Source of the DNA: Natronospira bacteriovora
Lineage (GTDB): Bacteria; Pseudomonadota; Gammaproteobacteria; Natronospirales; Natronospiraceae
Length of the DNA stretch: 64,000 bases
Assembly (NCBI RefSeq): GCF_030848495.1
Contig: NZ_JAVDDT010000002.1
Coordinates: 434,001 to 498,000, forward strand
Direction: 5' to 3'
A model generated the notes under the pieces. The model was not told the DNA's origin. It did no database searches and saw only the letters and a program-made list of their open reading frames with translations. Positions 7,374 through 25,860 of this stretch are shown piece after piece. Numbering within the stretch: position 1 is the stretch's first letter; each line of letters begins with the position of its first letter. The position numbers and the translations under genes were made by a program.

Positions 7374-7643
7374 ATGAACAATCGCTTCAAGGCACTGATT
7401 GCGGCCACTCTCTTTTTCCTTGCCCACGGGCTCTTCGCCGGGCAAGCCATCAATATCAATGAGGCAAGCGCCGAAGAAATGGCCGAAGCCCTGACGGGTG
7501 TGGGCCAGGCCCGTGCGGAAGCCATTGTCGAGTTTCGTGAGGAGCACGGCCGCTTCATGAGTGCTGACGACCTGGCGCTGGTGTCCGGTGTCGGGGAAGT
7601 CACGGTGGAGCGTAATCGCGAGCGTATTCGCGTGGATGACTGA
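7374..7643 (+). CDS. ComEA-like secreted helix-hairpin-helix protein
   Basis: An 89-residue protein with a signal peptide (RFKALIAATLFFLAHGLFAG) and a mature part made of one ComEA-type domain: ININEASAEEMAEALTGVGQARAEAIVEFRE, then a second hairpin VSGVGEVTVERNRERI. In competent bacteria ComEA binds incoming DNA in the periplasm; short forms such as this are widespread and their role is often untested. A terminator follows directly, so it is probably transcribed alone. Confidence 0.8.
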   Translation: MNNRFKALIAATLFFLAHGLFAGQAININEASAEEMAEALTGVGQARAEAIVEFREEHGRFMSADDLALVSGVGEVTVERNRERIRVDD

Positions 7644-7675
7644 GACTCTCGCCGGTCAGCGGTGAGGGAGTGCGG

Positions 7676-8943: not shown

Positions 8944-8972
8944 AGTATAAACCATGACAGAAGGAACCTGCC

Positions 8973-10371
8973 GTGAAATATCTTTTGACTCTCTCTCTCT
9001 CTCTCTCTCTCTCTATTCTTAGCTACACCTCTGAATGCCATGGAACCGCCCTGGGTGGGTACGGATGGCAGCAGGTTTGAGAACAATCGCTGGATTGTCG
9101 GGTTCAATCGACAAGACGAGTTGCCATCGCAGGCGGTTGGCGAGCTTGCCCATCAGCTCGGTCGCCAGCTGGGTTTTCAACCGTTGCTCGTTTTCGAGCA
9201 CGTCCATCGTGGATTTCTGGTGGAGTTGCCGGAGCACCCAGCCCGTTCACTTGAGCGAAATCCGAATATTCGTTCAGTGCGAAGAGATCGTGTTGTGCAT
9301 ACCCTGAGCGGAACAACGCAGCAAGAGGCGGATTGGAGCCTCGACCGGATAGATCAGCGTGATCTCCCCCTGTCCGGTTCCTATTCCTACGACTATGATG
9401 GGGCCGGCACGCGGATCTACGTGGTGGATAGTGGCGTCAGACTGACTCACGAGCGTTTTGGTGGCAGGGCCCAGCGTGTGTACGACCGTTTCGACAGTGA
9501 CTCCGATTACAGGGAAACCTGTGATACTGACTATGTGTGCTGTGTGGACGACTGCGGCAGTGTCTGTCCTATCCCATCGCCGGGGCAGGGTGATGGAGCT
9601 GCCACACCGAATTTTCACGGGACCGGGGTTGCCGGCAAGGCGGCGAGTGGTGTTCTTGGCGCTGCTCAGGGTGCGAGTATTGCGGATGTGCGGGTACTCA
9701 ATTGTCGCGGCGCCGGTATGGTCAGTGATGTGATTGATGGTTTGGCTGCTATTGCATCGCTGGAGTCTGCTGCGGGGGGAAAGTTGGCAGTGGTGAATTT
9801 GAGTATCGGATTCCCCCATACGGAAGCGGACGTAACGGATCTCGAGGAGGCGATACGGGATCTACCAAGTAATCTTCTGTTGGTGGCGGCAGCCGGGAAT
9901 AAAAATACGGATGCCGCTACGCTGGTCCCTGCCAGAATGGCCGAGGTTATTACGGTAGGCGCGAGCACCGAGAAAGATCGGCGTTATTGGGTGAGCAGTG
10001 AGGTTGGCTCCAATTACGGTGATGCGGTCGACCTGTTCGCACCGGGGCACAATGTGGAGATGCCATCATCGGAGAATGATACCGCGACCCGGGTCGACTG
10101 GGGCAGCTCCTACTCCGCCCCTTTGGTCGCCGGTGTCGCGGCGATCCATGCCCAAGCGGAAGGTGGTTTTATATCCCCCGGTGCACTTCGCCAGGTTCTC
10201 ATTAGCGAGGCTACCACTGGGCGCTTGACACATTTGTCTGGATCACCGAATCGTCTACTTTATCAGTCGCACAATACGGGAGATTCCGGTGACGACGGGT
10301 CGGGTTCCGGTGGTGGCGGATCGGGGTGTCCGTATCAGGATGAAGACGGGAACTGGATCATGTGCCCGTGA
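8973..10371 (+). CDS. Secreted subtilisin-like serine protease (S8), out of frame at a CT tract
   Basis: From the ATG at 9040 there are 443 codons with the S8 triad: Asp130 (YVVDSGV), His193 (NFHGTGVAGK) and Ser357 (WGSSYSAPLVAG), plus oxyanion Asn287. Residues 18-88 look like an I9-type propeptide; a segment with six cysteines (161-176) sits between Asp and His; the tail is Gly-rich. The ATG at 9040 has no ribosome site and no signal peptide. A GTG at 8973 with AAGGA 8 bases ahead opens a good signal peptide, but runs through 13 CT units and is then in the wrong frame, ending at 9080. With 11, 14 or 17 units it would read through Leu-Ser repeats and FLATPLNA into the protease. The protein is therefore probably periplasmic or secreted when in frame, and off as given. 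Confidence 0.8.
8989..9014 (+). repeat. (CT)13 dinucleotide tract in signal-peptide codons
   Basis: Thirteen uninterrupted CT units encode alternating Leu and Ser in the hydrophobic core of the protease signal peptide. The GTG frame (8973) is phase 0 and the protease frame is phase 1, so 13 units is out of frame; one unit more or two fewer restores it. With 12 or 15 units the frame stops at a TAG (9020-9022). Confidence 0.9.
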
Positions 10372-10385
10372 CTCTTGCGACATCC

Positions 10386-12247
10386 ATGATGAGAACGTGT
10401 CTTTCCGTTGCCGGGCTGATGGTTTGTTGGCTGCTTGTTGGCTTGCCTGTTTCGGCGGAGGCTGCCCGGGGCGAATCCCCGGGCAGCCTTGCGCCCGCCT
10501 CGGGTGTTTTACCCCCGTATGAGTCCTTTTCGCGCTTCACGGTCGCGTGTCGGCCTATTCCGATGACTATCTGTTGCTGGGTGTGCCGGATGCGAAAGAC
10601 GCCCGCGGTGTGGAAGTGGGTGGCCTGATGATCGTTGCCCCGGGCGAGGACGGGTTGTGGCAACGTCGGGAGTGGATTGATGGTCTGGACATTGTCGGCC
10701 AGAGCGGATCGCTTTTTGGCATTTCTTCAGCAGTGGAAGGGGATGGCTTCTTTGTCGGTGCGCTTTGGGAGAATAGACTCTATAGCCTAGATAATACGGG
10801 CAAGGTATATCAGTTTTATCGTGATCCTGAGACCGGGTTTGTTGAGCATCTTCGCGAGATTGCGAGACCGGAGCCTGATATCGCACAATTTGGCACTGGT
10901 CTTGCTTCCGAAAGAGATTGGCTGATTGTCGGTGCGACCCTGGGCGAGGGTACCCTGCCATCAACCCTCGGGGCGGCCTATGTCTTCCATTGGTCAGATT
11001 CGGCGAATGACTGGGTGTACCAGCAGAAACTGCTGGCCCCGGACGGCGAAGAGGGCGGACGGCAGGATGCCTTCGGCTCGACCGTGAAGCTGGCTTATCC
11101 CTGGTTGGCTGTTCATGCACGCAATGCCTGGGTGGAGGACATCGGCGAGCGCAATGGTGCCACTTACCTGTTCCGCCACGACCCCGATGCCGATGAGTGG
11201 GCCTTCTTTCAGAAAATCTCGGCCGTGCTTCCCGACGAAGGCGCGGAGGCCAGTGACACGAAGCTGATGTATTTCAATGGGGCGGATCTGCTCTTTCATT
11301 CGGGCCAACTGAACGAGGACCTCACCCGTACCACTCGTCTCGAACACTTTGTCTGGAACGAGGATGAGGTACTCTGGCAGCGTTCTGCGGTCATGCGGGG
11401 GCCGGAGCGGGAAGCGGGCAGCTGGCATACTTACGGCTGGTCGGCCATGATTCGGGACGATCGCTTGTATCTCGGATTCCCATCCGCCTTCGATGAAGCA
11501 GGCCGGCGGGGTGAGGGCGCGGTGCGTATCTACGATAGGGATCCGGGAGCGGAGAACGGCTGGCGGTTCCGGGAGGAGCTTCGGCCACCATGGTCGCAAT
11601 GGGGCACAAGACAACACGCCTTGGGTGTGGCTGTGGCGCCGGCCGGTCCGTATGGAGTTATCGTTCTGAGCGGTAACGACAGTATGTATCCAGGGCTGGG
11701 TAGCGCTGCCTATGTTTACCAGCCGGACGCGAAGCCAGTGCGTCTGTCGGTTTCGGATACCTGGACGGACCAGACGCCGGTTGCCGGTCGAACATTCAGA
11801 CATCATTGGCGTATCGAAAACAGTGGCGATAGCCGGGCCACTAATGTCTTGCTTCGGATGCAGTACGCGCCAGGCGCCCCCGACGATGTCAGCGGCGAGA
11901 ATGCCATTTGCGAGTGGAACAGCGTCCTCCAGTCCACTCTCTGCCTAATCGAGGAGGTTCCTGCGCAGGGGCATGTGACAGTGACCTTGAAAACCACTTC
12001 CCAGCGGGTGACCAACTACAGGATTGATGCGCTTTTGGTGTCTGATCAGATTGACGAAGACCCCGACGGGCGAGAGACCTCTGTGCGTTTGGATGTCGTC
12101 GAGTTTTGGGATGTCGGCGATGGTGTGGGCTGTGCCGCCAGCGGCCGCCCACCCACTGAGCTCCTGCTGTTCCTGTTTGTGACGATATGCGCTTGGCGAT
12201 ATCGTTTTGGACGCCCGGAGGATGGTACCCCAAGGGTATCAAAATGA
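10386..12247 (+). pseudogene. Secreted beta-propeller-like protein with a frame break near the N-terminus
   Basis: An ATG at 10386 opens a signal peptide (MMRTCLSVAGLMVCWLLVG, then PVSAEAA) in one frame; the body of the protein lies in another frame, open from 10523 to 12247. One extra T in the TTTT at 10527-10530 would join them into about 620 residues and give FFALHGRVSAYSDDYLLLGVPDA, an FG-GAP-like repeat start. Several further repeats of the type DRLYLGFPSA follow, then a DUF11-like domain (about 11750-12110) and a C-terminal membrane helix ELLLFLFVTICAWRYRFGR after GCAASGRPP, which resembles a sorting tail. It starts 15 bases after the protease. A GTG at 10547 could start a version without signal peptide. 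Confidence 0.6.
10460..10488 (+). other. Perfect GC-rich hairpin inside the signal-peptide region
   Basis: A perfect 12-bp inverted repeat (10460-10471 with 10477-10488) with a 5-base loop. It is not followed by a T-run, so a terminator role is uncertain. It lies between the signal-peptide codons and the frame break of the beta-propeller-like gene. Confidence 0.6.
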
Positions 12248-25757: not shown

Positions 25758-25783
25758 AGCGATACGCCGGGTGTGTTTTTTCT

Positions 25784-25860
25784 CGTTGTCGTTGTCGTTG
25801 TCGTAATCGGCATTTACTCTTCAGTTAAAATCTCGACAACGACAACGACAACGACAACGA
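25784..25860. repeat. Inverted hexanucleotide tandem repeats after uvrB
   Basis: The left arm holds 3.3 units of CGTTGT (25784-25803) and the right arm 4.5 units of CGACAA (25834-25860), which is the reverse complement. They can form a perfect 20-bp stem with a 30-base loop. The right arm lies 30 bases before the next gene. Confidence 0.85.

Follow-up and report, generated by a model that had tools for sequence, protein, structure and literature searches.

Can an exported protease be produced from a gene whose start codon and signal peptide, as sequenced, are out of frame with the catalytic domain? The question is raised by a gene in Natronospira bacteriovora, located within a stretch of 64,000 nucleotides of contig NZ_JAVDDT010000002.1 that was analyzed as a whole and is here called the window. 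A sequence-only reading had proposed that a CT repeat in the signal peptide of this gene switches an exported protease on and off. We have examined the tract, its reading frames and the related genes in the same genome (3.0 Mb, 15 contigs) and in other genomes.

The window protease and its CT tract

The open reading frame at positions 9040-10371 on the forward strand encodes an S8 subtilase that resembles proteinase K and aqualysin, with a propeptide region, the catalytic residues and a C-terminal CPYxxEDGxWxxCP motif. The frame was matched to Peptidase_S8 (PF00082) in Pfam with an E-value of 9e-27, and the catalytic residues D130, H193 and S357 as well as the oxyanion residue N287 were invariant in an alignment of five sequences. 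The best match in the PDB to the profile of these five sequences was aqualysin-1 (E 6e-80), and 1s2n was matched with E 2e-73. The Inhibitor I9 propeptide was identified at 1e-5 to 1e-6 in three of the homologs described below (paralog B and the homologs in G001 and Aliidiomarina); no such match was reported in the window copy, although it aligns over the I9 region.

Upstream of the protease, a GTG codon at position 8973 is preceded by a putative ribosome-binding region (AGAAGGAACCTGCC, positions 8959-8972, read directly; the sequence 5' of the GTG is GAAGGAACCTGCC). The CT tract begins 16 bases past the start of this codon, covers positions 8989-9014 on the forward strand and encodes the hydrophobic core of the signal peptide (Tandem Repeats Finder: CT x 13.0, 100% match, 26 bases). 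Translation from GTG 8973 gives a product of 35 amino acids, MKYLLTLSLSLSLSILSYTSECHGTALGGYGWQQV, which consists of an n-region, a Leu-Ser core and out-of-frame residues and ends at the stop at 9080 (positions 8973-9080). The start codon, the 13 units in the signal-peptide core and the early end of the frame were thus recovered as the sequence-only reading had described them. Its frame arithmetic, according to which 11, 14 or 17 units would lead into the protease, also proved exact, and in silico variation of the unit number added 8 to these lengths; all other lengths from 9 to 18 units resulted in early stops. The joined product contains LSLFLATPLNAMEPPW and amounts to 462-468 amino acids at the in-frame lengths, following the pattern MKYLLT(LS)nLFLATPLNA-MEPPW... 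in the ON frame. The proposed signal-peptide end FLATPLNA, with a plausible signal peptidase site, was read directly in the protease frame at positions 9016-9039 (forward strand).

In the protease frame, a TGA codon at positions 8986-8988 lies immediately 5' of the tract. Because this codon closes the frame, starts located further upstream cannot reach the protease as sequenced. Past the TGA, the only conventional starts near the beginning of the protease frame are ATG 9040 and GTG 9055, with no Shine-Dalgarno sequence visible at either and no signal peptide. With the frame closed by the TGA and the remaining starts unfit, ordinary translation yields no export-competent protease as sequenced. 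The window copy, hereafter also copy A, was sequenced in the OFF state.

Tract-bearing paralogs within the genome

A protein search placed the two paralogs most similar to the window protease (identities of 50% and 49%) directly 3' of the other two CT tracts in the genome; this search was independent of the search for tracts, and both pointed to the same loci. Paralog B (locus L011, ATG 6155) has a (CT)11 tract at C2:28171-28192. As sequenced it reads MRKLLISLSLSLSDSQPVCLG followed by a stop, and at 12 units it would read MRKLLISLSLSLSLIASPFASAEAA...; by a scripted frame count it is OFF at 11 units and ON at 9, 12 or 15. Paralog C, on the minus strand (locus L042, ATG 2843), has a (CT)7 tract (eight TC) at C5 near 112307-112322 and would read MKRIILLLSLSLSGPLQASEG... 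at 8 units; its body holds one in-frame TGA besides the tract. The start codons of B and C are preceded by AAGGAG, and all three genes have an AAGGA or AAGGAG motif upstream, together with a signal peptide led by lysine/arginine.

The tract lengths of A, B and C are 13, 11 and 7 units, and all three genes are OFF; in each case exactly one more unit would give an ON length. If lengths were random, all three genes would be OFF with a probability of 8/27 and would share the same OFF frame with a probability of 2/27, so the shared pattern is only mildly unusual; loss of a single unit from an ON ancestor would also place them in the same OFF frame. The bodies of the window copy and of paralog B, about 440 codons, are otherwise unbroken and the catalytic residues are intact. 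Comparisons among the three bodies gave dN values of 0.36-0.52 against saturated or near-saturated dS, which indicates selection at the protein level since duplication, over most of the time that the proteins have existed. Similar inverted sequences also border paralogs B and C (GTCACTGAAAAAGGGGTGACAGG-like on the upstream side, CCTGTCCCCCTTTTTC-like on the downstream side; L011:6105-6140 and 7630-7650, L042 about 2900-2870 and 1500-1475 on the minus strand); they may be a REP-like or mobile repeat that played a part in spreading the two genes.

Runs of at least six TC units occur at exactly three sites genome-wide, all of them in the S8 signal peptides of A, B and C. From the dinucleotide frequencies of the window, a tract of (CT)13 or longer is expected about 4e-10 times per 3.0 Mb, and the dinucleotide-based expectation for (CT)7 or longer is 0.011 per genome. 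Any (CT)9 was found in 4 of 369 genomes sampled across the class, with no clear signal-peptide context for the tracts of the other genomes that have one, within the extent of their contigs. A Pfam search identified 15 S8 genes in the genome, with split matches counted once. Twelve of these serve as an internal control: each has a secretion-type N-terminal sequence in frame, none (0/12) has a long tract there, and the longest run at their coding starts is a run of seven G. All three tract-bearing S8 genes are thus out of frame, as compared to none of the 12 that are tract-free.

Codon usage bears on why such tracts are present in the signal peptides. TCT accounts for 5.5% of the serine codons and CTC for 19% of the leucine codons in the genome, and a core made up solely of CTC and TCT would arise by codon choice with a probability of about 7e-10 for A and 1e-8 for B. 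Since TCT is scarce among serine codons, a need for these amino acids does not explain the exclusive use of CTC and TCT, and the codon figures indicate that it is the DNA repeat that is kept, not the amino acids.

Subtilases are abundant in this genome: about 3 Mb contain 15 S8 genes, three of which stand in tandem (L164, L172 and L174; G000:C3:44312-48545). Other repeats were also observed. Between genes, arrays of the hexamers (TCGTTG)n and (CGACAA)n, inverted relative to each other, and similar TCGTAA/CGATTA runs beside runs of G or C recur at L011:5836-5960, at positions 25783-25860 of the window and at L127, L136 and L145; together they look like a dispersed hairpin repeat.

Homologs and partner genes in related bacteria

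We scanned the named genomes with a query based on the alignment. In G001, a metagenome-assembled genome of the same genus (Natronospira sp. CSSed10_283R1), a homolog with 45% identity (C99; L043:1852-3252) has neither a tract nor a recognizable signal peptide, and its protease body and partner gene are intact, which suggests that the whole signal region has been lost. Among named genomes outside the genus, Aliidiomarina sp. B3213 (locus L069) gave the best match, a homolog with 36% identity, the same C-terminal motif (CPYxDExxxWVMC) and a downstream partner of the same type. This homolog starts with MKHQWKYLLALTIIGAIFT followed by a tract of ten C residues, A(C)10T, in the signal peptide, at the same place as the CT tract. 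The gene is OFF at 10 residues and would be ON at 8 or 11, giving ...TPPPYSHAETYEEAF. G001 also contains a more distantly related S8 gene (C70) whose signal peptide ends in a (G)10 tract; it is OFF with these ten residues and would be ON with 9 or 12. Unlike the CT genes, which are one unit short, its tract is one unit too long. In related proteases, the same functional site is thus occupied by three kinds of putatively slippery tracts (CT, C and G).

The remaining homologs that were fetched had no such tract at the start, and the CT-tract clade did not turn up elsewhere in the sampled class. A search for relatives of Aliidiomarina led to a 61%-identical SecD at best; no homolog was recovered at 1e-80 from 397 genomes of the family to which this SecD match belongs, and the S8 matches in plasmid records were just 34-36% identical among the matches listed. 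Shorter tracts in the genus were considered as candidate switches and rejected. The other runs of five TC units were all in unrelated contexts, located upstream of an apparent rpsL gene (L049, L053), upstream of an apparent tRNA gene (L052) or within open frames (L048, L050). Poly-G/C runs of at least nine bases, considered as a wider set of switches, were mostly intergenic or within long in-frame open reading frames among the fetched loci, the exception being the S8 gene in G001. Another S8 gene in G001 (L045; G001:C67:37457-38583) is frameshifted mid-gene into two overlapping frames.

Downstream of the window protease, at positions 10388-12247 on the forward strand, is a gene for an FG-GAP/DUF11 protein with a C-terminal hydrophobic anchor. 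A one-base frameshift near position 10530 splits it, and the two resulting frames, 10362-10628 and 10547-12247, overlap. Intact partners are located behind paralog B and behind the homologs in G001 and Aliidiomarina, and the partner of paralog C is intact across the fetched stretch. The pair recurs at each of these loci (partners at L011:7617-9458, L042:1-1473, L043:20-1897 and L069:6272-8155), and the partners that could be read to their end have a hydrophobic C-terminal anchor followed by Arg. Their C-termini are weakly similar to JDVT-CTERM sorting signals; the one in G001 gave an E-value of 0.0076, which is below the cut-off. Each partner is located close behind its protease, and in Aliidiomarina the stop and start codons overlap. 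Given this proximity, early termination in the OFF state could lower the expression of the partner by polarity.

Probable phase variation, its alternatives and known systems

From the gene sequences, we consider it likely that A, B and C are simple-sequence contingency loci, in which slippage at the CT tract of the signal peptide switches an S8 protease, and the Natronospira cell probably turns these proteases on and off at random, much as surface proteins are switched in certain pathogens. Slipped-strand mispairing would add or remove two bases per event. One in three lengths would place the start codon, the secretion signal and the protease in a single frame and yield an exported protease; in the other two length classes, translation would stop after a short peptide. 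Because CTC (Leu) and TCT (Ser) codons alternate along a CT repeat, any length that is in frame leaves the core hydrophobic, and this explains why a CT tract can be accommodated at this very place. With three paralogous genes of this kind, several combinations of expressed proteases are conceivable in a population.

This reading builds on features that were directly observed: the tract with its reading frames, the existence of the paralogs, the restriction of long tracts to these signal peptides and, in a homolog, a tract of another kind at the corresponding site. Phase variation is supported by the confinement of the other long CT tracts to the signal peptides of two paralogs, by the out-of-frame (C)10 tract in the nearest homolog outside the genus and by the 12 other S8 genes, which are in frame and have no long tract. 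These same observations favor the on/off switching suggested by the sequence-only reading, and from them we infer a change of length in living cells, export and an adaptive role, which may be bet-hedging over costly secreted enzymes or over an exposed surface. Among the tract-bearing genes in the assemblies, with one assembly per genome, no ON allele was found. MutS is present in the genome, so slippage would not be raised through a lack of mutS.

Alternatively, the genes were formerly phase-variable and are now decaying, with the tracts as relics and the OFF state made permanent after selection was lost, the 12 other S8 genes remaining. That three of three tract genes are OFF and that the G001 homolog lacks a signal peptide would agree with such a loss, and the nonsense codon in paralog C together with the frameshifted partner of the window copy make partial decay the main rival; part of the protease set may be decaying. 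However, the bodies of the window copy and paralog B have remained open, the tracts of 13 and 11 units are perfect where interruptions would be expected in idle tracts, and true contingency genes also show nonsense alleles, as exemplified by the meningococcal ausI (PMC5472700). We therefore regard decay of the switches as unlikely. A wrong repeat number due to sequencing or assembly error, with genes that are in reality in frame and constitutive, is very unlikely. Repeats are error-prone, and a systematic loss would leave A, B and C one unit short, as they are; yet tracts of 14-26 bp are well inside any read length, the error would have to hit three loci as well as the C and G tracts in other genomes while sparing 12 S8 starts, and the gene with the G tract is one unit too long, not short. 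Even a wrong count would leave it unexplained why the tracts occur exclusively at these sites.

The displacement of A, B and C into the same frame relative to the protease (chance 2 in 27) could also point to programmed slippage, that is, transcriptional polymerase slippage or ribosomal frameshifting on the CT tract that would restore the frame in a constant share of the products and give constant low expression. We find this highly improbable, since the C-tract gene in Aliidiomarina needs the opposite shift and the S8 gene in the second Natronospira genome has a G tract; CT repeats are not known as an established frameshift site. Barely credible is an intracellular protease translated from ATG 9040, for which the upstream frame would be irrelevant. 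This codon does head the S8 frame, but the sequence ahead of it (TACACCTCTGAATGCC) contains no Shine-Dalgarno sequence, the first listed start of paralog B lies about 35 codons within the body, and all three tract genes have ribosome-binding motifs and signal peptides further upstream.

Returning to phase variation, its adaptive side can be related to the habitat. Members of the genus Natronospira have been isolated from soda lakes on keratin, and one member was obtained from an enrichment with Staphylococcus cells (PMC7691419). Such a protein-feeding origin fits bet-hedging over costly secreted enzymes, and pressures from phages or at the surface are equally possible. We put forward, as a tentative and more doubtful extension, that a free-living, protein-feeding soda-lake bacterium may randomize its set of secreted proteases (up to eight combinations) by independent dinucleotide tracts, such that a clonal population would always contain producers and non-producers of a shared enzyme, with CT, C and G tracts recruited independently to one and the same site in related proteases. 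Here contingency loci would have been selected by social or prey-related pressures, not by host immunity. Simple-sequence contingency loci have been studied almost entirely in host-adapted pathogens, where the usual explanation is immune escape. A small family of secreted proteases with such switches in a protein-feeding soda-lake bacterium, together with a homolog in another genus that relies on a different tract, would make it possible to test without a host what phase variation is worth, because the cost of a secreted enzyme, cheating or phage exposure could be measured in plain culture.

The closest known switch is that of oipA (hopH) in Helicobacter pylori, whose signal peptide is encoded in part by a CT repeat that alters the frame through slipped-strand mispairing (PMC10564699). 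The type of switch, a CT dinucleotide repeat in the signal peptide, is the same, but oipA encodes the outer-membrane adhesin of a pathogen, whereas the Natronospira genes are three paralogous copies of an S8 protease; the body of the window protein is an S8 protease without homology to the Hop outer-membrane proteins. NalP of Neisseria meningitidis is, like the window protein, an exported subtilase with a tract in the coding region, and it is phase-variable through slipped-strand mispairing at a poly-C tract (PMC5472700). NalP is however a lipidated autotransporter with a beta-barrel, while the only Pfam match in the window protein is PF00082, with no autotransporter beta-barrel (PF03797) and no cysteine after the signal peptide in the ON frame, and its CT tract is located in the signal peptide. 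The window gene and the NalP-type enzymes thus have only the broad S8 family in common. In their catalytic domains, the Natronospira proteases resemble aqualysin-1 and the Vibrio-type extracellular subtilisin-like proteinase, from which the CPYxxEDGxWxxCP tail and the FG-GAP partner gene distinguish this small group. The proteinase K-like extracellular subtilases are not known to be phase-variable. A 2025 review of phase variation uses the term "free-living" once and includes no protease or dinucleotide case (PMC11868660), and no title among the open-licence papers that we searched for phase variation, an extracellular protease and a dinucleotide repeat describes such a case, which is weak evidence of absence. 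The proposed switch is of a known kind, but the organism and the target are both unusual.
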